A DNA stretch of 59,905 nt from Rhodospirillaceae bacterium. GTDB taxonomy: Bacteria; Pseudomonadota; Alphaproteobacteria; MPNO01; UBA2964. The DNA is taken from the NCBI GenBank assembly GCA_002709075.1, contig PAPV01000006.1, positions 23,785-83,689 on the forward strand, in the 5' to 3' direction. The notes below the pieces were generated by a model, which saw only the letters and a program-made list of their open reading frames with translations, did no database searches and was not told the origin of the DNA. Below, piece by piece: positions 2,678 through 16,978 of the stretch; positions within the stretch are counted from its first letter, which is position 1; every line of letters begins with the position of its first letter. The position numbers were made by a program, and so were the translations under genes.

Positions 2678-3199
2678 TTAAACTGTAATTTTTTGAGGAT
2701 TTTTTTCTCCACAGTTTTGGCAGTTTCCGTTTGCAATATTACCATAATATTCCTCAAAAACTGGAGGAAGATCTTTTACAATATTTTTAACAAAGATTTC
2801 CTTGCCCCAAATTTTTGAAGCACAATTGGCACAATACCACACAAAAGTATCAGTTATACCTTGTGGTCTAATCCTCTCTATTACCATACCAATACTCTCT
2901 GGATCGGGTCGTTGTGGCGAATGTGGAATATTCGGTGGCAATAAAAAAATATCTCCTTCATTTATAGTGATATCTACAAGCTTTTTTTCCTGAACTGTTT
3001 TCAGTGTTATGTTTCCTTTTAATTGATAGAAAAACTCCTCAAATGGATCCACATGGTAATCTGTACGGAGATTGGGTCCCCCGACTATCATCACAATAAA
3101 ATCGTCTTCTGCAAAGATAGTTTGGTTAAGAACAGGGGGACGAAGAAGATGCCGATTGTTTTCTATCCAACCCCAAAGATTAAATGATTTTAGAGACAT
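2678..3199 (-). CDS. nbaC: 3-hydroxyanthranilate 3,4-dioxygenase
   Basis: A 173-residue cupin that opens the ring of 3-hydroxyanthranilate to 2-amino-3-carboxymuconate semialdehyde, a step of kynurenine-type tryptophan degradation or of 2-nitrobenzoate pathways. The iron ligands His49, Glu55 and His93 are present, as are substrate-binding Arg45, Arg97 and Glu108. All are offset by two from the well-studied Cupriavidus enzyme. The bacterial C-terminal rubredoxin-like iron site is intact (Cys123, Cys126, Cys160, Cys163). It is the last gene of a likely three-gene minus-strand operon. No other kynurenine pathway gene is in the window, so the downstream route is not shown. Confidence 0.93.
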   Translation of the reverse strand: MSLKSFNLWGWIENNRHLLRPPVLNQTIFAEDDFIVMIVGGPNLRTDYHVDPFEEFFYQLKGNITLKTVQEKKLVDITINEGDIFLLPPNIPHSPQRPDPESIGMVIERIRPQGITDTFVWYCANCASKIWGKEIFVKNIVKDLPPVFEEYYGNIANGNCQNCGEKNPQKITV

Positions 3200-3218: not shown

Positions 3219-3569
3219 TTATTTGAAAGTTTCCATTGAATAATAAAAATCGTCTGGCAGTTTAGCCATAATTTGTTTTATCGAGCGTGCTTCGACGATT
3301 TTTTTACCGGTTTTGTGTTTTAGCAGATGGTAGCCTCCGTCTTGATGTCTTTCTATTCTATATGCTGCGTACGGACTCAAACCATGAGTACCAGAATATA
3401 TGATACATAAATCTTTCTCGGACTCTTTCTTCCTTTCACTTCTAAACCATCGATGAAGAAGCTTTTGTTTTTCACCGAGCGACTTTATGGCCTCTAAATC
3501 TGAACGCGTGAAACATGACAACTCCAGGATAAGAACATTTTTGGTTGATAAAGAATTTCTACTTTTCAT
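3219..3569 (-). CDS. hypothetical protein
   Basis: A 116-residue, Lys/Arg-rich, probably cytoplasmic protein that I do not recognise. It has no signal peptide or membrane segment. The middle is highly charged (RSERKKESEKD, about 43-53), and the second half has a mixed pattern (YRIERHQDGGYHLLKHKTGKK) that suggests a small beta fold. It sits between the GlcG/HbpS-like gene (14 bp upstream) and the dioxygenase gene (19 bp downstream), so it is probably translated from the same message. No Shine-Dalgarno sequence is obvious, and the start could be further inside. Confidence 0.65.
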   Translation of the reverse strand: MKSRNSLSTKNVLILELSCFTRSDLEAIKSLGEKQKLLHRWFRSERKKESEKDLCIIYSGTHGLSPYAAYRIERHQDGGYHLLKHKTGKKIVEARSIKQIMAKLPDDFYYSMETFK

Positions 3570-3583
3570 TTTACCAAGACTTT

Positions 3584-4012
3584 TTAGGGATCATACCTTA
3601 AATCCGCTGCCAAAATACCCGCGATTGCACAAATTTCGTCATTTTCTCCTGTATCACCACTAACTCCGACCGCACCAATAATTTCACCATCTTTATCACG
3701 AATTATCAATCCTCCAGGACTAGCTAACATTTTACCTTCACTCATTATAGAAATGGACGTAAAAAAATGTTCATTAACTCTGAATCGTTCAGCTATATTA
3801 CGAGTCGAGATGCCCATGCCAAGCGCTCCCCATGCCTTACCATGAGCAATTTGAGGGCGGAGTAACGATGAATTGTCTTGGCGTTTTAATGCAACTAAGT
3901 GTCCACCGGAGTCCAACACCGCGATTGTTAGTGGTGCTAATTTCATTTCATGACATTTTTTGAAACATGTTTCTATTAAAACATCAGCTTGTTTTAAAGT
4001 AATTGACACCAT
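3584..4012 (-). CDS. GlcG/HbpS-like (DUF336) protein
   Basis: A 142-residue protein of the GlcG/HbpS family: it begins with a helical segment, then has LTIAVLDSGGHLVALKRQDN and the glycine-rich SPGGLIIRDKDGEIIGAVGVSGDTGENDE, both hallmarks of the family. Members include haem-binding HbpS and proteins of unknown role encoded beside catabolic enzymes (glycolate, diols, aromatics). No signal peptide is seen, so it is probably cytoplasmic. It is the first gene of the operon leading to 3-hydroxyanthranilate dioxygenase. Family membership is secure; its role here is not known. Confidence 0.85.
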   Translation of the reverse strand: MVSITLKQADVLIETCFKKCHEMKLAPLTIAVLDSGGHLVALKRQDNSSLLRPQIAHGKAWGALGMGISTRNIAERFRVNEHFFTSISIMSEGKMLASPGGLIIRDKDGEIIGAVGVSGDTGENDEICAIAGILAADLRYDP

Positions 4013-4179: not shown

Positions 4180-5241
4180 TTAAGTAGTTAGTGGGCCAAC
4201 TCCCTTTGCAACCCCAACGACCTCGCCTGATCTTGTAAAAATTGGGGGTTCTAAAATATTTAAAAGCATCCCTTTTGCCCGCTCCGACAAAACGTCAAAT
4301 ATTCGAAGGACTTGCATCATGGCTATTTCTGCCGCTTTCTGTGATCCATCATCTATTTTTAGAGCAACGCCCAGCCCGAGCTTTGGAAACCCAGCCCCAT
4401 AAACCCCTTGAGATCCTGCCTTTAGAAGGACTTGTCCTTGACATGCTTGTATGATTCTAGTTTCAAATCTCTTATTTCCGGCAAACAGGAATGGGTGTTT
4501 AATAATAGCTTCTACTATTCTGTTTGCCGCAAATTTACGCTTTTCTGTGAGCATATCAGGGTTAACTAGGCGAGCCATAGCGCAGGCAAATTTTTCAGGT
4601 GAGACTGCGAGTGCAGGAACTCCCGAGCCGTCTATTGTTTTTGGCGCATGCATCAAATCCATATCCGTCATTTGCTCTAATAACTGAAGAAGGTTTTGTT
4701 GTATTGGATGGTCAAGACGTGTGTAACCGTACATCGGATAATTCAAATGTTTTGCAACCGTTAGTAAAGCAGCATGTTTACCTGAACAATTATCTTGCAA
4801 TCGAGATGGAAGTCCATCGGACTTTGGTATGCATTCATTTTCAATGTTTTCCAATGGCCATGACGGTCCACAAGTTAAATCAGTCTCATCACATCCAATT
4901 TTATTCAGCCATTTGCGTAGAATTTCGACATGCTTTTGTGATCCACTATGACTACTGCAAGCTAAAGCTATTTCTGAGAGATCCAGTCCAAATGTGTCGG
5001 CAGCTCCCGTTTCTACAAGCATGAGGGCTTGGAGAGGCTTTATAGCTGAACGCGGAAATATACTTGATTGAAAATCACCGACGGAAAATCGAATTCTTCC
5101 CGACGCATCAGTTACTACAACGGATCCGCGATGCTGGCTCTCTACTAAATCACCCCTAACGAATTCAACCAAAACTGGATTTATTGGTTTATTTATTACT
5201 TCATCAAAATTTATATCATTTTGCTTGTTTTGGTAAGCCAA
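4180..5241 (-). CDS. L-asparaginase II (Rhizobium-type)
   Basis: A 353-residue enzyme of the Asparaginase_II family typified by Rhizobium etli AnsA, unrelated to the E. coli asparaginases. It hydrolyses asparagine to aspartate and ammonia in the cytoplasm. Conserved family blocks are visible: VVTDASGRIRFSVGD, FPRSAIKPLQALMLVETGAAD, ACSSHSGS, DNCSGKHAA and DGSGVPALAVSPEKFACAMARL. The start is a TTG preceded by AGGAA at a good distance. It is the last gene of the hydrolase-LLM-hydrolase operon, 10 bp after the preceding gene, so it may act on an amide released by that route; this is only inference. Confidence 0.92.
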   Translation of the reverse strand: MAYQNKQNDINFDEVINKPINPVLVEFVRGDLVESQHRGSVVVTDASGRIRFSVGDFQSSIFPRSAIKPLQALMLVETGAADTFGLDLSEIALACSSHSGSQKHVEILRKWLNKIGCDETDLTCGPSWPLENIENECIPKSDGLPSRLQDNCSGKHAALLTVAKHLNYPMYGYTRLDHPIQQNLLQLLEQMTDMDLMHAPKTIDGSGVPALAVSPEKFACAMARLVNPDMLTEKRKFAANRIVEAIIKHPFLFAGNKRFETRIIQACQGQVLLKAGSQGVYGAGFPKLGLGVALKIDDGSQKAAEIAMMQVLRIFDVLSERAKGMLLNILEPPIFTRSGEVVGVAKGVGPLTT

Positions 5242-5251
5242 CTGGCAATTC

Positions 5252-6121
5252 CTATACCCTTTTCACACCAAGCTTTTTGTGAATGTTTTTAAGAAAATGT
5301 ATAGCGTCTTTGTTAAAACGGGCGGGATGCTCAATGTGTGGACAATGCGCAGCTTGGTCGTAGACTAAGGCCTTACTTCCTCTAATTTTATTTTTAAGTT
5401 CTTTTGCATAACCAGGCAGCCGCAATCCATCTTGTTTTCCAGCTACAAGAAGAACTGGAACATCTATGTTCTCGTATGGAGTGCTGTCCGAACCACCAAA
5501 TTGACTCCCTTTAAATTTAATATTGGGTCTTTTAAATCTTACCGCTGCTGCACATTCCCAGGCTCCAGGTAGAGTAGCATATTTTTGTCGCTTGCGGATA
5601 TACGCAGGATTGTCTACCCACTTTTTCTTATTGTAAAAAAGACCGTCCAGTAAATTCCGCATGGATTTTGTAGTTCCATCATACGCTAAAAGTTTTGCTC
5701 TATCATCCGATGCGGGGGCGAATCCGCCTCCAGAAGAAGCAACGATTGACCTGATCGGGAATATCGGTGGTGGGTCTGCTGCAATCCTGATTAAATTACT
5801 TCCACCCATTGAATTACCAACAAAATCTGCTGTTTTTATATCCATCACTTCTAAAAACCGACGCATATGCGAAAAAACGCGTTTTCGTCCAGAAGCGAAA
5901 TCAAATACTTTATCAGTTAAGCCAAAACCCAACCAATCAGGAGCAACAACGTGAAAATGACGCGCAAAGCTGGGAAGGTTGAATTCCCAAGATAATTCAG
6001 CACAACCACCAAATTCTCCAGAATGCAAAAATACTACTGTTGGCCCTTTTCCCGCTTCAAAATAGTGAGTTCTGATGCCATCCACATTTATGTATCGACT
6101 ATTTAAACCCTTTACACCCAT
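5252..6121 (-). CDS. alpha/beta hydrolase (MhpC-like)
   Basis: A 289-residue alpha/beta hydrolase with the nucleophile elbow GNSMGG (Ser104), acid AGKQDG (Asp231) and catalytic His259 in AAHCPHIEHP, so the triad is complete. The oxyanion-side FLHSGE motif is near residue 31. Overall layout resembles meta-cleavage-product hydrolases and related C-C or ester hydrolases. No signal peptide is present. It follows the flavin monooxygenase gene by 16 bp and precedes asparaginase II by 10 bp. A ring-cleavage product, ester or lactone substrate would suit the context, but the substrate cannot be read from sequence. Confidence 0.88.
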   Translation of the reverse strand: MGVKGLNSRYINVDGIRTHYFEAGKGPTVVFLHSGEFGGCAELSWEFNLPSFARHFHVVAPDWLGFGLTDKVFDFASGRKRVFSHMRRFLEVMDIKTADFVGNSMGGSNLIRIAADPPPIFPIRSIVASSGGGFAPASDDRAKLLAYDGTTKSMRNLLDGLFYNKKKWVDNPAYIRKRQKYATLPGAWECAAAVRFKRPNIKFKGSQFGGSDSTPYENIDVPVLLVAGKQDGLRLPGYAKELKNKIRGSKALVYDQAAHCPHIEHPARFNKDAIHFLKNIHKKLGVKRV

Positions 6122-6137
6122 GGATAATCACTCAAAT

Positions 6138-7421
6138 TTATGCAGCTTTCGCTTTCTTTGTTTTCTTCTTCATCCAACTTGCCCTTGCGTTAGCAAGTGC
6201 ATCTGTGCGCCCTAAAAATTTAGATGCTTGAATTGGCCGGCCGCGTTCCTTCAGTGGCCCAAGAGAAGAACTTACTGTTCCAAGATCTTTAAGCTGGGGA
6301 ACGACTTCCTCAGCAAATAATCTCATACTTTTTTCTGTATGGTTAAATGGCATATCACCTGAATGCATCATCCCGATTAGGTGTCCAAAACCATCCACCT
6401 TTTTGTACAAATCTTTTATTTGTTGCACTACGGAGTCTGGTGTTCCGTATACGGCCACCCCATTTTCTCTAAAATACTCCATCCCTTTTTCTCGTATTGC
6501 ATCTGTACGGCCACCACTGAAACGACCCGATAAGAAATTAGCATAGAGTGGTGTTTCAACATAACCTGGAGGAGCCCTAAACTGAGGTTCAGCTTTATTA
6601 TTCGAAACATACCAAAAAACTTCATGGATGTATTCCAATGCCTCGGCTTCAGTTTCCCCAACAGCCAACAATGGCATAAATGCTAATAGATCATCAGCAG
6701 GTTTTGGTAAGCCTTTTTTCTTGAGGTTATTTTTTATTCCGTCAAACATTTTCCGCATCCCAGCAGCAGGAGTGAGAAACATTGTAAATGTAAAACCATT
6801 CTCAACCGCACGAGTGGCATGGTTAACATCACTACCACCTGTCATCCAAATTGGCGGATGCGGATCCTGATATACTCTCGGCCACACATTTACCTGTCTT
6901 TTGTGGATCCATCTTCCTTCATAGTTGAATGGTCCATCATGAGTAGCCCAAGCATTTTGCATTAACTCTACTGACTCCCACATTCTTTCACTAGTCTCTG
7001 TGGGGTTACAATTTGATCCAAAAAGCTCGTAAGGAACTCCGCGTACAAAACCACACTCTAATCTACCGTGGGACAGGTTATCGATCATCGCCATCTCTTC
7101 TGCACATCTAATTGGATCTCTGAGATTTGCAGCAGGGTTCCCAAGAATACAAATCCGAGCGTTTTTTGTTTCACGTGCCGCAATAGCCACAGACAACGGC
7201 GCGGCTGAATTTATGCAGGTTGCTGTCTGATGATGCTCATTAATCATACAATTGAGTCCAAGTTCGTCAGCTAATTTGTGCTGATCTAAATAACTATGAT
7301 AGAGATCGGCACCTATTTTGGGATCAAATACGGAGCTTGGAAGATTAACTCTCATGGAAGTAAATTCGTCTTCCGGTGGAAGATAAGGCCAGGGAAATTC
7401 AGTAAAGTGATAAAATTCCAT
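6138..7421 (-). CDS. LLM-class flavin-dependent monooxygenase
   Basis: A 427-residue bacterial-luciferase-like protein, a TIM-barrel enzyme that uses reduced FMN supplied by a separate reductase to oxygenate its substrate. Family marks include the start MEFYHFTEFPWPYL, the NEHH block, ARICILGNPAANLRDPIRCAEEMAMIDNLSHGRLECGFVRG (split here only for description) and PPIWMTGGS. A short Lys-rich tail ends the protein. It lies between two alpha/beta hydrolase genes (10 and 16 bp gaps), which suggests oxygenation followed by hydrolysis of one substrate. No flavin reductase gene is near. Confidence 0.92.
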   Translation of the reverse strand: MEFYHFTEFPWPYLPPEDEFTSMRVNLPSSVFDPKIGADLYHSYLDQHKLADELGLNCMINEHHQTATCINSAAPLSVAIAARETKNARICILGNPAANLRDPIRCAEEMAMIDNLSHGRLECGFVRGVPYELFGSNCNPTETSERMWESVELMQNAWATHDGPFNYEGRWIHKRQVNVWPRVYQDPHPPIWMTGGSDVNHATRAVENGFTFTMFLTPAAGMRKMFDGIKNNLKKKGLPKPADDLLAFMPLLAVGETEAEALEYIHEVFWYVSNNKAEPQFRAPPGYVETPLYANFLSGRFSGGRTDAIREKGMEYFRENGVAVYGTPDSVVQQIKDLYKKVDGFGHLIGMMHSGDMPFNHTEKSMRLFAEEVVPQLKDLGTVSSSLGPLKERGRPIQASKFLGRTDALANARASWMKKKTKKAKAA

Positions 7422-7431
7422 AATATACTCC

Positions 7432-8232
7432 TTAGCGAAGAAATTTGTTCAATATAGGGTCAAAACGATCAGGACGTTCTACATGAGGAAAGTGCCCTGT
7501 TCCAGAGATAGAAACAAAATCGCTTTTCGGTAACAATTTAGCGTAAGCTTTTCCATATTTAACCTTGGCGAGTCTATTACGGGATCCCCAAATTACTTGT
7601 GTTTTCACTGTGATCCTGTGCAGACGGTTTTTAAGTGTTGGATTATGAAAATAAGGATCCCAACACAGTTTGGCTGTAGTCTCCTTGGAACGAGCTAGAA
7701 CAAACGCCTCCGATTCAGAGAGCTCTGTCGGAACCATTGGGTCTTGCTTAGGGTTGCTAAATTTGAGTGACTGCACTTTTGCAGTCGGATGGTAATAAAT
7801 ATCCTCAATATCCCTGTCATAGGGACCTCCTATTTTCACTCCCAAAGGACATACCAAACTCATTTTAGAGATTCGAGAGCAATCTTTAGAGGCAATTTCA
7901 TTTGCTAGCCAACCACCTACAGAAAAGCCAACCAATCGAAGCTTTTGTAGTTTTAGTTTCTCTAACAGATCTAAATAAGCATAAGAGAGATCGTCAATTG
8001 TTCGAATTTTGTTTGGTAGATCTGTCTTTCCATAACCTGGCATCCATGGAACAATAACTTTGTATTTTTGGGCCAAATTCTGGATCAATGGTAAACTTAG
8101 TTCATAATAATCTTCACTATGAAGCCATAAAATAGGGGATCCAGATCCGAACTGTTGCACAAAGAAATCCGCTATTGGCAGATTGATAATGCGTGAAGAA
8201 CCGCGAACTGTCGGAAATTTCTTTGATGACAT
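7432..8232 (-). CDS. alpha/beta hydrolase with altered acid residue
   Basis: A 266-residue alpha/beta hydrolase and first gene of the minus-strand operon. The nucleophile elbow is GFSVGG (Ser104) and the catalytic histidine is His247 in GTGHFPHVERP. At the place where the family usually has the catalytic aspartate (WGxxD) the sequence is WGSRNR, so an asparagine occupies the acid position. Either another acid serves, or activity is altered. It has no signal peptide. It is followed after 10 bp by the flavin monooxygenase gene, so it likely acts in the same pathway. Confidence 0.85.
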   Translation of the reverse strand: MSSKKFPTVRGSSRIINLPIADFFVQQFGSGSPILWLHSEDYYELSLPLIQNLAQKYKVIVPWMPGYGKTDLPNKIRTIDDLSYAYLDLLEKLKLQKLRLVGFSVGGWLANEIASKDCSRISKMSLVCPLGVKIGGPYDRDIEDIYYHPTAKVQSLKFSNPKQDPMVPTELSESEAFVLARSKETTAKLCWDPYFHNPTLKNRLHRITVKTQVIWGSRNRLAKVKYGKAYAKLLPKSDFVSISGTGHFPHVERPDRFDPILNKFLR

Positions 8233-8340
8233 ATTTACTCCAAGGGCTTAAGCGTTATTTATTTATACCGAGGATATGGGTGAATGAAAAGCCCACACTC
8301 AAAGAAGGTTAAAATATTTTCACGAATTAGGGTTGTTAGT

Positions 8341-8763
8341 ATGCAAAATCCAAAATGGACCGGAAAATGTCTCTGCGGTGCCATAACCTACCTGGTAAAA
8401 AATGATCCTCTCATGAGCGGGTGTTGCCATTGCGATGATTGTCAACGTCAAACAGGTTCCTCTTTTGCTCCGTTATTGATTTTTAATAAAAATGATTTTT
8501 CTTCAATTGGTAATACTTTAGTGGAGTTTAAAGGTACGGGTGGTAGCGGAAAATCAGTGAAAAGAGGGTTTTGTTCAATTTGTGGCACTTCAGTTTTTAG
8601 CTGGTATGAGGTTACCCCAGACTTTTTAGTAGTGATGGCAGGAACTTTGGATAATAAGCTTAAATTCCTCCCTGAGTGGGATATTTATTCTGATCAGGCA
8701 CAACATTGGATAAAGTTTCCCAAAGAACACAAGGTTTTTCGGTCTGGTTACGGAAGTGATTAA
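8341..8763 (+). CDS. GFA-family (CENP-V/GFA) zinc protein
   Basis: A zinc-binding protein of the Gfa-like family named for glutathione-dependent formaldehyde-activating enzyme, although most members have no proven activity. The cysteine motifs are CLCG near the start, CCHCDDCQRQTGSSFA, and CSICG. The frame opens at 8284, but the ATG at 8341 gives the family's normal N-terminus (MQNPKWTGKCLCG), so I choose that start; this gives 140 residues. It diverges from the minus-strand operon and is 3 bp upstream of an alpha/beta hydrolase gene, so the two are probably co-transcribed. Confidence 0.87.
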   Translation: MQNPKWTGKCLCGAITYLVKNDPLMSGCCHCDDCQRQTGSSFAPLLIFNKNDFSSIGNTLVEFKGTGGSGKSVKRGFCSICGTSVFSWYEVTPDFLVVMAGTLDNKLKFLPEWDIYSDQAQHWIKFPKEHKVFRSGYGSD

Positions 8764-8766
8764 TTT

Positions 8767-9567
8767 ATGCCGTATGCAATCAATAATAATATTCGTGTAT
8801 TTTACGAAGTAACTGGGGAGGGGCGTCCTCTTGTCTTGCTTCATGCTAACCCGTGTAGCAATAGAATGTGGCTGTATCAAATAGCTACATTTTCTCAATG
8901 GTTTCGTGTGATAACGCCGGACATGCGTGCTTATGGTCGATCTGATAAACCAACCACGCCATACCCGTTTTGTGAACTCGTAGATGATGTTTTAGCAGTT
9001 TGTGAAACAGAAAATGTTAAATCTGGTATTCTTGCTGGTGCCAGTATGGGGTCAAAAATCGCCTTTCAGCTCTTGGCAGAAAATTCAGGAATTTTCGATG
9101 CCAGCGTTCATATCGGTGGAAATGCCCTGAGAGGCAAGTCATACGATGACCGAATTAAGGGTTATGAGTCTGTTGGATATAAAGTACGTTCCTATCGTGA
9201 AACCCATTTAACTGAACTTTTTGCTTTAGATTTTATAAAAACAGATCTTGGAAAGTATTTAATATCAATGTTATTGAATGATTCGGAGAACCTGTCTGGA
9301 AGAGCTATTGCCCAACTATTTCGAAGTTTTGATAACGTTGATCTTTTAGACAAAATCTCGAAACTTGATAAACCAACCTTGATATTAAATGGCGAATTCG
9401 ACAGTTCATTGCCAGGTGCCCAAAATACAATCAAATTTATTCCAAAATCTAAACATGTAATTATTAAAAATGCTGGTCATCTCTGTGCTCTAGAAAAACC
9501 AGATTTGGTTAACGCTGCTATTAAAACATTCTTTTGTGAAAATAACATACTGCCGCATATATTTTGA
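8767..9567 (+). CDS. alpha/beta hydrolase
   Basis: A 266-residue alpha/beta hydrolase. The nucleophile elbow is GASMGS (Ser93), an acid is present in NGEFDSSL, and the histidine is in NAGHLCALEKP, so the triad is complete. The N-terminal GEGRPLVLLHANPCS block is typical. No signal peptide. It shares an operon with the GFA-family gene (3 bp gap). The substrate is unknown; relatives include 3-oxoadipate enol-lactonases and non-haem peroxidase-like hydrolases, which cannot be separated by eye. Confidence 0.88.
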   Translation: MPYAINNNIRVFYEVTGEGRPLVLLHANPCSNRMWLYQIATFSQWFRVITPDMRAYGRSDKPTTPYPFCELVDDVLAVCETENVKSGILAGASMGSKIAFQLLAENSGIFDASVHIGGNALRGKSYDDRIKGYESVGYKVRSYRETHLTELFALDFIKTDLGKYLISMLLNDSENLSGRAIAQLFRSFDNVDLLDKISKLDKPTLILNGEFDSSLPGAQNTIKFIPKSKHVIIKNAGHLCALEKPDLVNAAIKTFFCENNILPHIF

Positions 9568-9926: not shown

Positions 9927-10490
9927 ATGGACAGCATAATCGAGGCATCTCAAAACTCCACTGAACGAGCAAATCAATCCGGTTATTCTCGGAAAATTGC
10001 TCAAGAAATTGTGGATATTTGCTTTAATGCTGGAATAAGCCTTGCAGCAACCCTTCCCGATGATTGGATTGCGCATACAATAGCTTGTTTTGAGCAAGAT
10101 TCTCGTTTTGCTCATATACCCGTAAATCGAGAGGAGTCGGCTATCGGAATTTGCTCTGGTGCGTTTTTAAGTGGAACAGGTTCAGTTGCTTTAATGGGGG
10201 CGTCCGGTTTGATGACGCTGGTGTATGCAATTACCAAAATCAATTACACGTACGAAATTCCTGTGTTTTTAATGGCTACATATCGGGGTTCGTTGGATGA
10301 TGGTGCAAAATTTCATGTGTCGAACGGGTTGTACTTAGAAAATGTATTAAATTCCATTAACCTAACGCACACAATAATAAACAATGTGATGGAGTTATCA
10401 AAAATCGAGGAGGCATATCATCATTCCCGAAAAATTAGTCGACCTACTGTCGTATTATTACCAAAAAGATTATTGCAAGGTAAAGGATAG
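9927..10490 (+). CDS. sulfopyruvate/phosphonopyruvate decarboxylase-like, alpha subunit
   Basis: A 187-residue protein matching the pyrimidine-binding half of a thiamin diphosphate (ThDP) decarboxylase of the ComD type. The conserved glutamates lie in NREESAIGICSGAFLSGTG (Glu69/Glu70), followed by MGASGLMTLVYAITKINYTYEIPVFLMATYRG (described as one block). The next gene encodes the ThDP-binding half, 5 bp downstream, so the two would form one enzyme. Known substrates of the family are sulfopyruvate and phosphonopyruvate; the substrate here is unknown, and no other sulfonate or phosphonate gene is in the window. Confidence 0.82.
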   Translation: MDSIIEASQNSTERANQSGYSRKIAQEIVDICFNAGISLAATLPDDWIAHTIACFEQDSRFAHIPVNREESAIGICSGAFLSGTGSVALMGASGLMTLVYAITKINYTYEIPVFLMATYRGSLDDGAKFHVSNGLYLENVLNSINLTHTIINNVMELSKIEEAYHHSRKISRPTVVLLPKRLLQGKG

Positions 10491-10495
10491 TTTTT

Positions 10496-11086
10496 GTGAC
10501 TTATTATGAATGTATAAAATGGCTGGCAAGTCGCTGGACCGACGAATTAGTAGTTACCTCTGCAGGCACTAGCTCTGAGTTCTGGTATGATATAACCGGC
10601 GACACAGAAAGAGTTTTTTATTTAGAGGCATCAATGAGTCTCTCCTCAATGTTTGCCGCGGGTATTGCTTATGGTTTGAAAGATAAACGTGTTTGGGCTT
10701 TTAGCGGAGATGGAGCTTTTGTAATGAATGCTGGAATGCTTGCAGTAGAGCAGCATATGGCGCTTCCTAATCTTAAACACTTCATGATTTCCAACAGGGT
10801 TTACGGTTCGACATCAAATGTTCCTCTGCCCGGTAGAGAATCCAACGATTATGCGGCTATTGCTCGAGCATTTGGAGTGAGTAGGGTATTTAGTTTTAAA
10901 GACTTGAACGATCTTAAAAGTAATTTTGGTGAAGCTGTGTCGAATCCAGGGTACAGTTTTATTCATCTTGAAGTGCAACCTGTAAATGATAGGCCCGGTT
11001 CACCTCCAATGGACGGGCCGGAGCTTAAATTCAGATTTGGCAGAAATATTGAGAATATTTCAAACAAAAAGGTATTTTCCAGTTAG
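10496..11086 (+). CDS. sulfopyruvate/phosphonopyruvate decarboxylase-like, beta subunit (ThDP-binding)
   Basis: A 196-residue ComE-type subunit. The ThDP/Mg motif begins with GDG at residues 71-73 and ends with Asn100, the normal spacing. The N-terminal ECIKWLASRWTDELVVTSAG is typical of the subunit. The start is GTG at 10496, 5 bp after the alpha gene. It is 27 bp upstream of an XRE regulator gene. As with the alpha subunit, the 2-oxo acid substrate is not known. The gene may also be a more general ThDP enzyme half. Confidence 0.82.
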   Translation: MTYYECIKWLASRWTDELVVTSAGTSSEFWYDITGDTERVFYLEASMSLSSMFAAGIAYGLKDKRVWAFSGDGAFVMNAGMLAVEQHMALPNLKHFMISNRVYGSTSNVPLPGRESNDYAAIARAFGVSRVFSFKDLNDLKSNFGEAVSNPGYSFIHLEVQPVNDRPGSPPMDGPELKFRFGRNIENISNKKVFSS

Positions 11087-11113
11087 TTTTATGATTCAAG
11101 AAAATAAAAAACA

Positions 11114-11998
11114 GTGACTATCAGGTTTGATGATATAGGGGATCGTCTAAAAGCATTTCGTATTTCATCGGGTTTAAGTGTAGAAGAAATTACACTGAAG
11201 GCGAAGATTTCAAGGGCAGCACTTTATCGTTATGAAAGAGGTGAAGTTGCCAAAATTGAGACGCTGGTGCGGCTCGCAGATCTTTTGGGCGTTTCAATAA
11301 CAACTCTAATGGGAGTGGGCGTTGAATATCTCGCCTCTGCTGTAGCATTTTTTGAGAGAATGCGACAAATAGAGGAAACTGTTGACCAGATTGTTGTATT
11401 GTTTGGTCCTATTTCATATCTACTAACTTCGACAGAATACGATAATAATTTAAGACAGGTTTTGACGGAGAGTATACCTGCAAACTCTAAGACGCGATTG
11501 AGTTCTATAAAGGATATTGAGCTTGTTATGGAAATCTTAGCTCAACGCAAGGTCCAATATTTCACCAGAAAACCAGGAATTGTTAGCATTGTTTCATCTT
11601 CTGAGATGGAACGTTTTTTACGAAACGGTATGGTTGGTAGCACAAGCCTGTCAAAAGAAACCCGTGATCGACGTAGAGCTTTCGCGGTAGCGGAAGCAGA
11701 ACGTGTTATCTCGATTTTGGAGGATGAACCAATTGGAGTACAGCTTGGGGTGGTAGAGGATACGGTTCCACAATCTTCGTTTCAAATTTTTCGTCAACCA
11801 GATAGGCCATTGCTAGCCGTCAGCCCGTTCAGACTTGGTGAGAATCCAAACGTTAGAGTTGGTGTTGCAATGATCACTCCCGCACCGGAGGCCGTCAAGC
11901 TGCACGATGAAACTGCCTCAGAATTGTGGTCTAGATCGGTAAAAGGAAAAGAAGCAGCCCGCTTAATCAAAAGTTTAATAGATAAAATACAATCTTAA
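11114..11998 (+). CDS. XRE-family transcriptional regulator
   Basis: A 294-residue protein with an N-terminal XRE helix-turn-helix (about residues 8-62: LKAFRISSGLSVEEITLKAK then SRAALYRYERGE). The remaining 230 residues form an effector or oligomerisation domain that I do not recognise. It starts with GTG and lies between the ThDP decarboxylase genes and the pyrimidine operon on the same strand, so it may control one or both. The size is larger than classical XRE repressors and suggests ligand sensing. Confidence 0.85.
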   Translation: MTIRFDDIGDRLKAFRISSGLSVEEITLKAKISRAALYRYERGEVAKIETLVRLADLLGVSITTLMGVGVEYLASAVAFFERMRQIEETVDQIVVLFGPISYLLTSTEYDNNLRQVLTESIPANSKTRLSSIKDIELVMEILAQRKVQYFTRKPGIVSIVSSSEMERFLRNGMVGSTSLSKETRDRRRAFAVAEAERVISILEDEPIGVQLGVVEDTVPQSSFQIFRQPDRPLLAVSPFRLGENPNVRVGVAMITPAPEAVKLHDETASELWSRSVKGKEAARLIKSLIDKIQS

Positions 11999-12106: not shown

Positions 12107-12946
12107 TTGTCATCAGTAATTAATTTATCGCTCCACGAGGAGCCTGTTAATACGAAAACACCTACAACAGCGGAATTTTCCTGCCGAGTAGACCAGAATT
12201 TGAAACTCAATGCGGAATACTTTCATCTTTATCTTGATGCACCAGAGGTAGCCCTGAAGGCTTTGCCAGGCCAATTTTTTCATCTTATGTGTCCATCAAG
12301 CGAACTCGGCGATCCCTTTTTCAGAAGGCCGATGAGTATTTACAAAGTAGATAAAGTGCAAAGAAAGATTCAATTTCTCTTTAAAAATGCGGGAGTTGGA
12401 ACGAATGGTCTGTCTAAATTAAATCCTGAAGAATTTTTAAATATCGTTGGTCCTCTAGGTGTTGGATTCACTATTCCTAATGGAACTCGACACATTATTG
12501 TTGTTGGAAGAGGTGTTGGTTTAGCAACGTTAGCACCACTTGCGGAAATGGCATCACAGAAAGGTGTTCAGGTAACAGCTATATTGAGCGCACGCAGGTT
12601 AGATTTACTCATGTCGTCAGAGAGATTCCGTTCTACAGGAGCTGAGGTAATTCAGGTGCATGATGAAGACAATTCGAGTGCTGTCGAAAATATTGAAATA
12701 TTACTTCGCCAATTAAATGGAGACGCATTTTATACGTGCGGCTCAAATAGGTTGTTCAAATTAATTAAAAGGTTATCCAAAGAATTAAATATATTTGGAC
12801 AAGTGGCACTTGAACAGCAAATGGCCTGTGGTATTGGAGTTTGCTTTTGTTGCGTAAGAACTTTTGAAATTAACGGTAAAAATATACATAAGCGGGTTTG
12901 CAGCGAGGGGCCTGTTTTTGATGTCTGTGAAGCAACGGGATGGTAG
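12107..12946 (+). CDS. pyrK: dihydroorotate dehydrogenase electron transfer subunit
   Basis: A 279-residue FAD and [2Fe-2S] subunit of class 1B dihydroorotate dehydrogenase, which links orotate formation to NAD. The FAD-binding RRPMSIYKVD motif is near residue 70, the glycine-rich nucleotide-binding GRGVGLATLAPLAE follows in the middle, and the cluster ligands are Cys241, Cys246, Cys249 and Cys265. The only start that fits is TTG at 12107. It overlaps pyrD by 7 bp. Class 1B enzymes are best known from Gram-positive bacteria, whereas many Proteobacteria use the quinone-linked class 2 enzyme. Confidence 0.9.
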   Translation: MSSVINLSLHEEPVNTKTPTTAEFSCRVDQNLKLNAEYFHLYLDAPEVALKALPGQFFHLMCPSSELGDPFFRRPMSIYKVDKVQRKIQFLFKNAGVGTNGLSKLNPEEFLNIVGPLGVGFTIPNGTRHIIVVGRGVGLATLAPLAEMASQKGVQVTAILSARRLDLLMSSERFRSTGAEVIQVHDEDNSSAVENIEILLRQLNGDAFYTCGSNRLFKLIKRLSKELNIFGQVALEQQMACGIGVCFCCVRTFEINGKNIHKRVCSEGPVFDVCEATGW

Positions 12947-13881
12947 ATCTCTCTGTTGAAATAGGAAATTTGCATTTAAAGAATCCAATTATGCCAGCAT
13001 CTGGAACTTTTGGACCAGAACTATCTAATGTAATGGATATTAATTTGTTGGGTGCGTTGGTGGCTAAATCAATCACACGCGACTTTCAACCTGGTAACCC
13101 CACGCCGCGTGTGGCAGAGACGGATTCTGGTATGCTTAACTCTATCGGAATTCCGAGCAAAGGTATCGAAGAATTTTTAAAAACAACAGTGCGTGAGTAT
13201 TCAAATTTTAAATCGCCCGTTGTTGCAAGTATTTCCGCCCATTCCGAAGCAGAATTTGCATATATGACTAATGCCCTCAGTATAGAACAAATTTCAGCAA
13301 TCGAATTGAACATTTCTTGCCCAAACTTAGAGGCAGGTGGAAAATCATTTGCATTAGACTCAAATTTAACAGAAAAAGTTGTTAAAGTAGCAAAAAATAA
13401 TTCAAAAAAACCAATTTGGGTAAAACTTTCTCCAAATGTTACTGATATTTCAGAAATAGCTATAGCTGCTGAGAACGGAGGAGCAGATGCGCTTGTTGTA
13501 GCAAATACGCTGCTTGGTATGGCTGTAGATAGTGAGAACTTTAGAGCAGTGCTAGGCACCACCACAGGGGGATTGTCGGGTCGTGCTGTAAAGCCCATTA
13601 TTTTACGAATGGTTAAAGAATGTTATCATTCTATTTCAATACCAGTAATTGGGTGTGGTGGAATTTCAAACGCAACGGATGTAGTCGAATTCATGCTGGT
13701 GGGAGCATCAGCTGTTCAAGTGGGAACTGTTACTTTTGAACATCCAGCTGCTATGGAGACCATTATTAATGATTTGCCAATTTGGTGTAAAAGAAAAAAT
13801 ATAAAGAGAATAGCGGACGTTATCGGTGCTATCACTTTCCCTGATAGAGAAATTTCCGGCGTTATGGAGGGAATTCGATGA
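12940..13881 (+). CDS. pyrD: dihydroorotate dehydrogenase, class 1B catalytic subunit
   Basis: A 313-residue FMN enzyme interconverting dihydroorotate and orotate. The catalytic Cys127 lies in LNISCPN, and NTLLGMAVD, SGRAVKPI and IGCGGISNATDVVEFMLVGA are FMN and phosphate-binding blocks of class 1 enzymes. It overlaps both neighbours (7 bp with pyrK, 4 bp with the amidohydrolase), which indicates translational coupling. With PyrK it would form an NAD-linked heterotetramer in the cytoplasm. Confidence 0.93.
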   Translation: MVDLSVEIGNLHLKNPIMPASGTFGPELSNVMDINLLGALVAKSITRDFQPGNPTPRVAETDSGMLNSIGIPSKGIEEFLKTTVREYSNFKSPVVASISAHSEAEFAYMTNALSIEQISAIELNISCPNLEAGGKSFALDSNLTEKVVKVAKNNSKKPIWVKLSPNVTDISEIAIAAENGGADALVVANTLLGMAVDSENFRAVLGTTTGGLSGRAVKPIILRMVKECYHSISIPVIGCGGISNATDVVEFMLVGASAVQVGTVTFEHPAAMETIINDLPIWCKRKNIKRIADVIGAITFPDREISGVMEGIR

Positions 13882-15176
13882 ATACCCAAATGAAAATTAT
13901 AGATTCTGATTTAAGTTTTTGTTGTTCCAAACGCGCTGAATTTGCGAGTACAATTTTCGAAAAACTCAGGTTTCTCTCGTTAGATGGACCGGGAGTAAGC
14001 AGAGAGTCCTATGGAGTGGGAGAACAGAAGGCCATAGATTTTCTTATACAAATCGCAAAGAACGAAGGACTTATAGTTTCTTTCGACCAAGCCGCTAATT
14101 TGATAATAGAACTGCCAGAATGCGGAGAGCAAATTCCTTCAATTTTTTGCGGCTCACATTTAGATTCTGTACCACAGGGTGGTAATTTTGATGGGGCTGC
14201 GGGTGTCATTGCCGGCCTAATTTCACTTATTCGATTGAAAAGGAATGGAATAAAAACCAAATTACCGATTAAGTTAATTGCTCTTCGCGGAGAAGAAAGC
14301 GCCTGGTTCGGACCATGCTACATTGGATCAAATTCATTGTTTGGACATTTAACAGAGGATGATTTGAATTCTAAACACCGAACAACAGGAAAGTCATTGA
14401 GAAATTACATGGCAAAAGCTGGAGCTAATATTGAAAAAATATCGAAAGGTGAAAAATTACTAAAAATCAGTGATGTAGCAGGCTATATTGAGCTCCATAT
14501 TGAGCAAGGACCCGTTATGGTTGCTCGTAATGTTCCAGTAGGAATTGTAACAGGATTACGTGGAAATATTCGATACAAGAAGATCCGTTGTCTCGGTGAG
14601 GCTGGACATTCCGGTGCGGTGCCGCGTTGGCTACGACACGATCCTGTGCTGGCTACCTCGGAATTACTACACAGAGTAGATGAACATTGGCGTGTGCTTC
14701 TAGAGCGAGGACTTGATCTGGTGCTAACTGCAGGTATTTTTACAACTAACCCGGTAAAACATGCAATGTCGCGAATACCAGGCGAGTGTGAATTTAGTTT
14801 AGAAATGAGAAGTCAAAGCATTGAAACTCTTGAAGCATTTGATGAGTTTTTAAAAGCAGAAATGAGGAGTATTGAGCGAGAAAAAGGTGTGTGTTTTAAC
14901 CTTTCACCAAAAGGCTTAATCAAACCTGCCATTATGAACCAAAACTGGATTGAGCATCTTTCAAGTTGTTGTGACACACTTGACATCGAACATGAGCGTT
15001 TACCCAGTGGAGCCGGCCACGATGCCGCAGTATTCGCGAATAACGGGATACCATCAGCTATGATTTTTGTTCGAAATCAGAACGGTTCTCATAATCCTAA
15101 TGAAGCAATGGAAATTAGTGACTTTATGCAAGGTGCAGAATTACTCTATGAGTCTCTATTGGAGCCCCCATTTTGA
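13878..15176 (+). CDS. M20-type N-carbamoyl-amino-acid amidohydrolase
   Basis: A 432-residue member of the allantoate amidohydrolase / beta-ureidopropionase / N-carbamoyl-L-amino-acid hydrolase family. Metal ligands are visible at His94 and Asp105 (GSHLDSVPQGGNFDG), Glu139/Glu140 (RGEES), His207 (IELHIEQGP) and His405 (NGSHNPNEAME). Such enzymes release ammonia and CO2 from carbamoyl-amino compounds. It overlaps pyrD and pyrC by 4 bp each, so it is embedded in the pyrimidine operon. N-carbamoyl-aspartate, the product of reversed PyrC, is an attractive substrate, but beta-ureidopropionate is also possible. Confidence 0.88.
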   Translation: MNTQMKIIDSDLSFCCSKRAEFASTIFEKLRFLSLDGPGVSRESYGVGEQKAIDFLIQIAKNEGLIVSFDQAANLIIELPECGEQIPSIFCGSHLDSVPQGGNFDGAAGVIAGLISLIRLKRNGIKTKLPIKLIALRGEESAWFGPCYIGSNSLFGHLTEDDLNSKHRTTGKSLRNYMAKAGANIEKISKGEKLLKISDVAGYIELHIEQGPVMVARNVPVGIVTGLRGNIRYKKIRCLGEAGHSGAVPRWLRHDPVLATSELLHRVDEHWRVLLERGLDLVLTAGIFTTNPVKHAMSRIPGECEFSLEMRSQSIETLEAFDEFLKAEMRSIEREKGVCFNLSPKGLIKPAIMNQNWIEHLSSCCDTLDIEHERLPSGAGHDAAVFANNGIPSAMIFVRNQNGSHNPNEAMEISDFMQGAELLYESLLEPPF

Positions 15177-16213
15177 CGCAGAGACTTACGATCGTAAAAC
15201 CAGACGATTGGCATCTACATCTGCGCGATAATGAAATCCTAAATTGTGTTCTTCCATTCTCAGTAGAGAGATTTGGACGCGCTATCATAATGCCAAATCT
15301 TAGCCCTCCGGTAATTACTTATCAGGATGCGAAAAGATACCGTGAGCGTATTAACGCTGCTTTAACCAAAAAAAATAACTTTACTCCGTTAATGACTGTA
15401 TATTTAACTGATTACACTGATCCAAAAAATGTTAAAATTGGGATAAGAGAAAAAATTCTCACAGCAGTTAAGCTTTATCCAGCTAACGCAACAACTAATT
15501 CAGCTCAGGGGGTTACAGATTGGCGAAATGTTAGGGGTGTGCTGTCGGTATTGGAAGCAGAACAAACACCTCTTTTAATACATGGTGAGGTAACCAATCC
15601 GAATATTGATATATTTGACAGAGAGTTGGTATTTATTGAGCAGATTCTTACACCAATCATTTCAGAGTTTCCTGGTTTAAAAATTGTTCTTGAGCATATA
15701 ACGACAGAAGATGCTGCTGCATTTGTCAGCGAGGCTAGTGACAAAATTGCAGCAACAATCACACCACATCATTTAGTTATTAACAGAAATGCCATTTTTG
15801 ATGGAGGAATCCGGCCCCACATGTATTGTTTACCAATAGCAAAGCGTGAACGGCACCGATTAGCTCTTCGGGCAGCGGCGACATCAGGAAATTCGAGTTT
15901 TTTTTTAGGCACTGACTCGGCTCCACACACCATTAAATCAAAACAGTCTGAATGTGGCTGTGCCGGTATTTTTAATGCACCAAACTCTTTAGAAATATAC
16001 GCTCAGGTATTTGATGAAGAGAATGCTTTGGATAAGTTTGAACGATTTGCTTCTATAAATGGTCCGAACTTCTATGGTCTTAAACCGAATGAAGAAACAT
16101 TGACACTTTTTAAAGCTTTGTGGCAACCCATAGGTCATGTTCAAATAAAAGGTATCGGTGAGGCAATACTTCCATTTAGACCAAAAGGAGATATTGGTTG
16201 GAGGCTAGAATAA
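15173..16213 (+). CDS. pyrC: dihydroorotase (E. coli type)
   Basis: A 346-residue class II dihydroorotase that interconverts N-carbamoyl-aspartate and dihydroorotate. The binuclear zinc site is complete: His14 and His16 (DDWHLHLRD), carboxylated Lys100 (AVKLYPANATTNS), His137, His175 and Asp248 (GTDSAPH). It starts with TTG at 15173, overlapping the amidohydrolase by 4 bp. The length agrees with E. coli PyrC. It is the fourth gene of the pyr operon. Confidence 0.95.
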   Translation: MTQRLTIVKPDDWHLHLRDNEILNCVLPFSVERFGRAIIMPNLSPPVITYQDAKRYRERINAALTKKNNFTPLMTVYLTDYTDPKNVKIGIREKILTAVKLYPANATTNSAQGVTDWRNVRGVLSVLEAEQTPLLIHGEVTNPNIDIFDRELVFIEQILTPIISEFPGLKIVLEHITTEDAAAFVSEASDKIAATITPHHLVINRNAIFDGGIRPHMYCLPIAKRERHRLALRAAATSGNSSFFLGTDSAPHTIKSKQSECGCAGIFNAPNSLEIYAQVFDEENALDKFERFASINGPNFYGLKPNEETLTLFKALWQPIGHVQIKGIGEAILPFRPKGDIGWRLE

Positions 16214-16282
16214 ATTGTTAAATTTGTTACATTTATCTTATAGATATATATAGAATAAGTAAAAATTTTTTGGGAGAATAGA

Positions 16283-16978
16283 ATGGCTGTTGGTGGTGCC
16301 TTTCCAGATAAAAAAATCATTGCAGAATTAACTGCTAAAATGCTTGTAGAGGTCGATGCAGTGGTTTTTAATGCAGAAAAACCCTTTATTTTTACTTCTG
16401 GGTGGGCAAGTCCTGTTTATATTGATTGCCGTAGATTAATATCCTTTCCCAGATTGCGACAAACCATTATAGATTTTGGTGCGTCGATTATTCTTCGTGA
16501 AGCCGGATTTGAGAGTTTCGATGCAGTCGCAGGTGGCGAAACGGCTGGGATCCCTTTTGCTGCATGGATGGCAGATCGTCTAATGTTACCAATGCAATAT
16601 GTACGAAAACAGCCAAAGGGGTTTGGTCGCGACGCACAGATAGAAGGGCATCTTGAAGAAGGTCAGCGTATTCTTTTAGTAGAGGACTTAACAACAGACG
16701 GACGAAGTAAAATCAATTTTTGTGAAGCACTTCGCACTGCAGGTGCCAATGTAAACCACGTTTTTGTTGTATTTCACTATGGTATTTTTCCGGATGAACA
16801 AATATTTAATGATATGAATGTTTCTATGCATTCTCTGGCGAATTGGTTCGATGTTCTCTCCGTAGCAAAGCAAGGCAACCTATTTGACGTAAAAACTCTT
16901 GATGTAGTTGAAAAATATCTTAATGACCCTGTCACGTGGTCTCGTGATAATGGGGGCGTTTCTGAACTTCCTTCTTAA
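16283..16978 (+). CDS. pyrE: orotate phosphoribosyltransferase
   Basis: A 231-residue transferase forming OMP from orotate and PRPP. The PRPP-binding motif [10 protein letters not shown] is at residues 133-142, and [15 protein letters not shown] is the usual catalytic loop. GGGAGAA-like sequence precedes the ATG. It lies 69 bp after pyrC and probably belongs to the same transcription unit, though it could have its own promoter in the AT-rich gap. Its presence supports a biosynthetic or salvage role for the operon. Confidence 0.94.

Follow-up and report, generated by a model that had tools for sequence, protein, structure and literature searches.

The genes for a luciferase-like monooxygenase (LLM) and for an adjoining alpha/beta hydrolase (hydrolase-1, ABH1), found in a 59,905-nt stretch of a Rhodospirillaceae bacterium genome (assembly GCA_002709075.1, contig PAPV01000006.1, positions 23,785–83,689; the whole stretch is referred to as the window), belong to a module that has duplicated and diverged as one unit. 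The pair forms the conserved core of a cassette that in several lineages includes a second hydrolase (hydrolase-2, ABH2) as its third gene. We consider it reasonably probable that ABH1-LLM-ABH2 is a catabolic two-component oxygenase that depends on reduced flavin mononucleotide (FMNH2) and acts with dedicated hydrolases, and the cassette probably serves the breakdown of hard-to-digest organic compounds.

In the window, ABH1 (7432–8232), LLM (6138–7421), ABH2 (5252–6121) and a class-3 asparaginase-family gene, AsnII (4180–5241), follow one another on the minus strand, with open frames throughout, a TTG start codon for AsnII and gaps of 10, 16 and 10 bp, in agreement with the initial annotation. 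The identities given there are borne out by Pfam, which assigns Abhydrolase to both hydrolases, Bac_luciferase to LLM (PF00296, 114 bits, cut-off 27.9) and Asparaginase_II to AsnII (PF06089, 342.8 bits, cut-off 25). The same annotation had proposed a four-gene degradation operon. A conserved monooxygenase–hydrolase unit, placed elsewhere in catabolic settings (transporters, flavin reductases, UbiD, HyuAB, amidohydrolases), survives of this proposal; a single indivisible pathway does not, as the ABH1-LLM(-ABH2) core comes without the asparaginase in most lineages.

A hydrolase and a monooxygenase that diversify together

In one scan of genome contigs, ABH1 adjoins LLM in all 25 loci recovered, ABH2 is present in 13 of them and AsnII in five, with two loci (L008 and L013) ending inside ABH2; these loci overlap with the genomes of our sample (G numbers) and the two sets are not independent. 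Since the order recurs in other genomes, the four-gene arrangement is more than a product of chance. Many of the 13 sampled genomes of the same family (f1, including the window's own genome, G000) contain further LLM copies (roughly 29 to 48% identical), and these too have an adjoining ABH1 homologue.

Across 55 modules, the distance matrices of LLM and ABH1 correlate with r = 0.929. Shuffling the hydrolases only among the modules of one genome, a procedure that preserves species relationships, gave r values that averaged 0.341 and never exceeded 0.662, and none of 5000 shuffles reached the observed value. Moreover, the flanks of 33 control loci of other PF00296 proteins—the top-scoring loci rather than a random sample, some of them with short flanks—contained no homologue of ABH1 or ABH2, and two had a gene similar to the third hydrolase of the window (ABH3, described below). 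It is this excess over the within-genome shuffles, combined with the absence of ABH1 and ABH2 from the control loci, that establishes duplication as a unit. The comparison was based on 55 hand-listed loci with 57 LLM places and left out L008 to L013 (apparently the same records as loci of the G genomes), L018, L019, L025, L030 and L031; L051, whose ABH1 match falls into two pieces, was excluded by a length filter and L034 was removed as a duplicate of L067, leaving the 55 modules.

The initial annotation had suggested examining neighbour conservation, and the genes are not scattered in close relatives: the order ABH1-LLM-ABH2-AsnII is kept in all seven genomes of the family in which the contig runs on (G000, G001, G003, G004, G005, G011 and G012), although in G012 a 341-aa open reading frame (ORF) sits between ABH1 and LLM. 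The contigs of G002 and G007 stop inside ABH2, and a different G007 contig starts with AsnII. In the window and five relatives, ABH2 and AsnII are separated by 4 to 10 bp; in L076, whose start call is not secure, the distance is 51 bp. Nine of the 13 family genomes encode an LLM orthologue with 71% identity or more, the other four genomes being 67 to 86% complete; in the class as a whole, only 8 of 385 sampled genomes have an LLM match at E <= 1e-100. Within-family order alone is, however, weak evidence, because neighbours of the VWA and MoxR types show the same degree of synteny. At the protein level, divergence to a same-genus genome (pN, used instead of dN/dS because synonymous sites were saturated) is 0.077 for LLM, 0.133 for ABH1 and 0.138 for ABH2, compared with 0.229 for ValS.

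Enzyme families and genomic settings

LLM combines the PF00296 domain with the TIM-barrel fold of bacterial luciferase in its predicted model (mean predicted local distance difference test score, pLDDT, 70.8), which places it in the luciferase-like superfamily, and the residues invariant across a 20-sequence alignment are present in the window's protein as well. The nearest folds are RslO1 (Z 30.9, 317 aligned residues, rmsd 3.1), the Agrobacterium monooxygenase 2i7g (Atu2307-type), luciferase and diketocamphane monooxygenase (DKCMO, Z 26.8). Membership of the NtaA/DmoA or SsuD subfamilies was rejected, the scores lying far under the model cut-offs (32.2 of 279.7 and 37 of 518.2 bits, respectively). 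We infer that LLM is the oxygenase component of a two-component FMNH2-dependent monooxygenase. Two PF01613 flavin reductases are encoded elsewhere in the same genome, unlinked to the cassette; according to the accessible parts of two reports on LLMs that catalyse Baeyer-Villiger reactions, flavin supply by an unlinked reductase has been reported for DKCMO, and for the progesterone pdc system it has been considered (PMC5192521, PMC12239570). PF00296 proteins number six in this genome and 4 to 28 in the family relatives (E up to 1e-20).

ABH2 resembles the hydrolases of meta-cleavage products: its best PDB match is the meta-cleavage compound hydrolase 1j1i (E 4.6e-27), and among 19 aligned sequences the Ser-Asp-His triad and an arginine are retained wherever they can be read (Ser104 in 19/19, Asp231 and His259 in 17/17, Arg178 in 18/18). 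We take Arg178 to be the active-site arginine of that enzyme group. At the same time, ABH2 scores far under the HsaD and BphD equivalog cut-offs (80.1 of 400 and 45.7 of 462.15 bits).

The statement in the initial annotation that no flavin reductase, transporter or regulator is adjacent holds for the window, as judged from ORFs and Pfam, but not for the relatives, which have all three (ORFs of GC-rich relative loci were called with codon scores). The arrangement RibBA-ABH1-LLM-ABH2-reductase is shared by Beijerinckiaceae/Rhizobiales loci (L023 to L027 and L029) and loci of f114, a further family of the class (L077 to L079), with RibBA upstream in nine of nine loci and a reductase of the FNR/2Fe-2S type or PF01613 downstream in all eight that reach that far; TctC-type receptors are present in most of the RibBA-type loci. 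The possibility that RibBA is a dedicated extra copy was dismissed: three f114 genomes have no full copy besides the one in the cluster, other matches being partial and weak. Further settings include an amidohydrolase-2 and a RutB-like isochorismatase near the cassette in Defluviicoccus, UbiD, TauD and amidase contexts (L017, L022 and L028), a HyuA/HyuB context (L014) and a hydroxycinnamoyl-CoA hydratase/lyase above its cut-off (L080). On the 41-kb plasmid p4 of Pukyongiella litopenaei SH-1 (L083, NZ_CP043622.1, 14595–35761), what looks like a complete catabolic island runs flavin reductase-HyuA-HyuB-ABH-LLM-ABH, five ABC transporter genes and a LysR gene, with Tn3 transposases on both sides, and a Rhodococcus plasmid has the order LLM-ABH-flavin reductase. 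The plasmid search returned no near-identical DNA, and none of 17 pattern matches on viral contigs codes for a relative.

The asparaginase is best regarded as a member of a neighbouring block and as an addition to the cassette in the family of this genome. AsnII follows ABH2 in one family only, in its seven readable genomes. Beginning 167 bp past AsnII on the same minus strand, this block consists of an HbpS-like gene (3584–4012; PF03928, syntenic in the family), a 116-aa uncharacterised protein gene, U116 (3219–3569), without a Pfam or NCBIfam match, and the gene for 3-hydroxyanthranilate 3,4-dioxygenase (HAO, NbaC; 2678–3199; TIGR03037, 218.4 bits, cut-off 145.95; NF009763, 241.8 bits, cut-off 220). 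We group AsnII with HAO because a sister-family genome (G387) has AsnII and U116 (42% identity each) near HAO on one contig and the ABH1-LLM-ABH2 cassette on another. Among 385 class genomes, five, all from a single order, encode U116 (predicted model pLDDT 57.1), which adjoins HbpS, HAO or AsnII. HAO exceeds its equivalog cut-off. As to the kynurenine pathway as a source of its substrate, the window's own genome has no match to kynureninase (TIGR01814), an enzyme that one of the 13 family genomes has and 12 lack. On a Bradyrhizobium plasmid (L087, NZ_CP082165.1), an LLM-ABH pair is preceded by genes for a heme-binding protein, an aldolase and a cupin, reminiscent of the HbpS-like and HAO genes close to the cassette in the window.

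Whether AsnII could release ammonia, as the initial annotation had it, is doubtful, as is L-asparaginase activity in this genome, judging from the residues. The Ser-Lys pair, Cys152, Lys155, His156 and Asp204 match the class-3 L-asparaginase ReAV, and Cys152 and Lys155 correspond to two of its zinc ligands (Cys135, Lys138 and Cys189); the third, however, is replaced by Ser206 (codon 4624–4626). A cysteine is kept at this position in five of seven aligned sequences and missing in two, the window and L012. In ReAV, the C189A exchange abolishes zinc binding and activity, and the accessible text of that study contains no serine variant (PMC11024299). The name 'asparaginase' is thus no safe guide to ammonia release here.

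Upstream of ABH1, a GFA-family gene (8284–8763; PF04828) and ABH3 (8767–9567; PF00561) are encoded divergently on the plus strand, beginning 51 bp away, and both are syntenic in part of the family. Farther along (9927–11998), a split thiamine-enzyme gene pair, its first half similar to sulfopyruvate decarboxylase (below the cut-off) and its second half assigned by eye, and then an XRE-like regulator lie beside tRNA-Asn. They are followed at 12107–16978 by what appears by eye to be a pyrimidine run of PyrK, PyrD, PyrC and PyrE with an inserted M20-type carbamoylase-like gene (13878–15176).

Proposed mechanism and competing explanations

If the cassette is catabolic, an unlinked flavin reductase would supply reduced FMN to LLM in this genome, and LLM would oxygenate a substrate that has a carbonyl group or a ring, with a Baeyer-Villiger-like reaction as a first guess and ring-opening as another possibility. 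ABH1 would then hydrolyse what LLM directly forms, be it an ester, a lactone or a ring-opened compound, and ABH2 would perform a later hydrolytic cut, whereas AsnII may be a family-specific addition acting on some amide. Gene families, order, pairing, co-diversification, residue states and the neighbours in relatives are observed; FMNH2 dependence, the sequence of steps, the kind of chemistry and co-transcription are inferred. More tentatively, and with somewhat less than even confidence, ABH1-LLM may be an obligate co-diversified oxygenase–hydrolase module, perhaps a complex that passes an unstable product to the hydrolase, which was duplicated into many substrate-specific copies as an alphaproteobacterial parallel to the SAR202 expansion for recalcitrant organic matter; several members of the lineage concerned come from marine samples according to their record titles, and the lineage also has molybdenum-hydroxylase paralogues by the tens. 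XDH-type matches (E up to 1e-50) amount to 21 in this 2.5-Mb genome and 3 to 37 in the 12 family relatives.

Several observations speak against the catabolic reading. LLM lies below all NCBIfam subfamily cut-offs, and its chemistry therefore cannot be read from its name; the differing contexts across lineages (UbiD, HyuAB, hydroxycinnamoyl-CoA lyase) suggest different substrates; and scans for promoters and terminators performed no better than shuffles (19 versus 20.1 and 7 versus 6.2, respectively). In addition, the window's ABH1, by its sequence, is without the catalytic aspartate: its position 219 (codon 7576–7578) carries Asn, where all 54 other sequences of the 55 aligned have Asp, with Ser104 and His247 retained. 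In our view this reflects a point change or an error in the sequence rather than decay, since ABH1 is well conserved relative to ValS. An ongoing loss of function of this genome's copy seems improbable to us: point changes at the ABH1 aspartate and the AsnII zinc ligand, and the absence from the window's locus of RidA and a haem-oxygenase-like gene that the same-genus relative has, would fit such a loss, but every frame is open and LLM, ABH1 and ABH2 are all more conserved than ValS. We think it quite improbable that the four genes are neighbours through family synteny without any shared function. The VWA- and MoxR-type neighbours, as syntenic as the cassette itself, would suit this explanation, and AsnII owes its membership mainly to such synteny; yet ABH1-LLM persists on plasmids, in Rhizobiales, in Rhodococcus and in paralogous copies with quite different flanks.

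The main rival to an oxygenase with dedicated hydrolases is a Rut-like opening of an N-heterocycle or lactam, in which a molybdenum hydroxylase would ready the ring, LLM would open it oxidatively and the hydrolases, RidA and an amidohydrolase would finish the pathway with release of nitrogen. Evidence in this direction comes from same-family relatives, where RidA and a molybdenum-hydroxylase subunit of the XDH type adjoin ABH1, from the isochorismatase and amidohydrolase of the Defluviicoccus loci, from HyuA/HyuB in two unrelated settings and from HAO in the window. The supporting genes are nevertheless scattered over different lineages, HAO being the sole one present in the window; no RutA model is among the NCBIfam matches of LLM, both hydrolases remain far under the RutD cut-off of 238.5 (38.8 and 41 bits) and the relatives' genes fall under the RutB and RutC cut-offs. 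Membership of the Rut pathway proper was rejected, as the RutA and RutD family models are not reached, and we hold a Rut-like route to be possible but rather unlikely. A last alternative makes LLM an F420-dependent oxidoreductase instead of an oxygenase. The F420 subfamily TIGR03619 does give the best NCBIfam score and F420 enzymes occur among the fold neighbours, but the score of 70.6 bits is far under the cut-off of 166.9, flavin reductases and RibBA adjoin LLM in relatives and the nearest folds are oxygenases, which leaves this alternative highly improbable.

Relation to known systems

The logic of oxygenation followed by hydrolysis is already known. The ABH1-LLM-ABH2 cassette, by contrast, and likewise the co-diversified pair with its recurrent RibBA, reductase and transporter settings, go unnamed in the titles and abstracts found in the open-access literature, which is not proof that they are unpublished. 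The Rut pyrimidine pathway is similar in joining an LLM to an alpha/beta hydrolase, and RidA and a RutB-like amidohydrolase occur near some relatives, but no RutA, RutB, RutC, RutD or RutF model reaches its cut-off in the proteins tested. AsnII shares PF06089 and the residues listed above with the class-3 L-asparaginases ReAIV and ReAV, from which it differs in its serine at the zinc-ligand position and in its linkage to an oxygenase cassette.

For the RibBA-like gene in the relatives' cassettes, the ipp cluster of Rhodococcus sp. D-6 offers a published precedent, as a RibBA-like gene lies within this catabolic cluster of a two-component flavin monooxygenase and is co-induced with it; its oxygenase, however, belongs to Group D rather than to the LLMs, and the accessible part of the report describes no ABH1-type partner (PMC12442392). 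In SAR202, many FMN/F420 monooxygenase paralogues per genome have been proposed to act on recalcitrant organic matter (PMC5395668). Family f1 is comparable in its number of LLM paralogues, but SAR202 is another phylum, and the accessible text on it reports no hydrolase pairing and does not contain the word hydrolase (PMC5395668).

Some environmental bacteria encode very many LLM enzymes, most of them without a known substrate. Among the characterised ones, the Type II Baeyer-Villiger systems—diketocamphane monooxygenases and the progesterone pdc LLM—are alike in their LLM oxygenase and in a reductase that is possibly unlinked, as far as the accessible text of both reports goes (PMC5192521, PMC12239570), and the predicted model of the window's LLM has a fold similar to that of 3,6-DKCMO at about 19% identity. 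For the pdc system, no hydrolase is identified in the accessible part of the report (PMC12239570). In contrast to these systems, the window's LLM has a fixed, co-diversified ABH1 partner; such a co-evolving hydrolase narrows the chemistry of the LLM, since its product must be hydrolysable, and the versions linked to a reductase, a transporter and a regulator, as on the Pukyongiella plasmid, provide a tractable route to the substrate.

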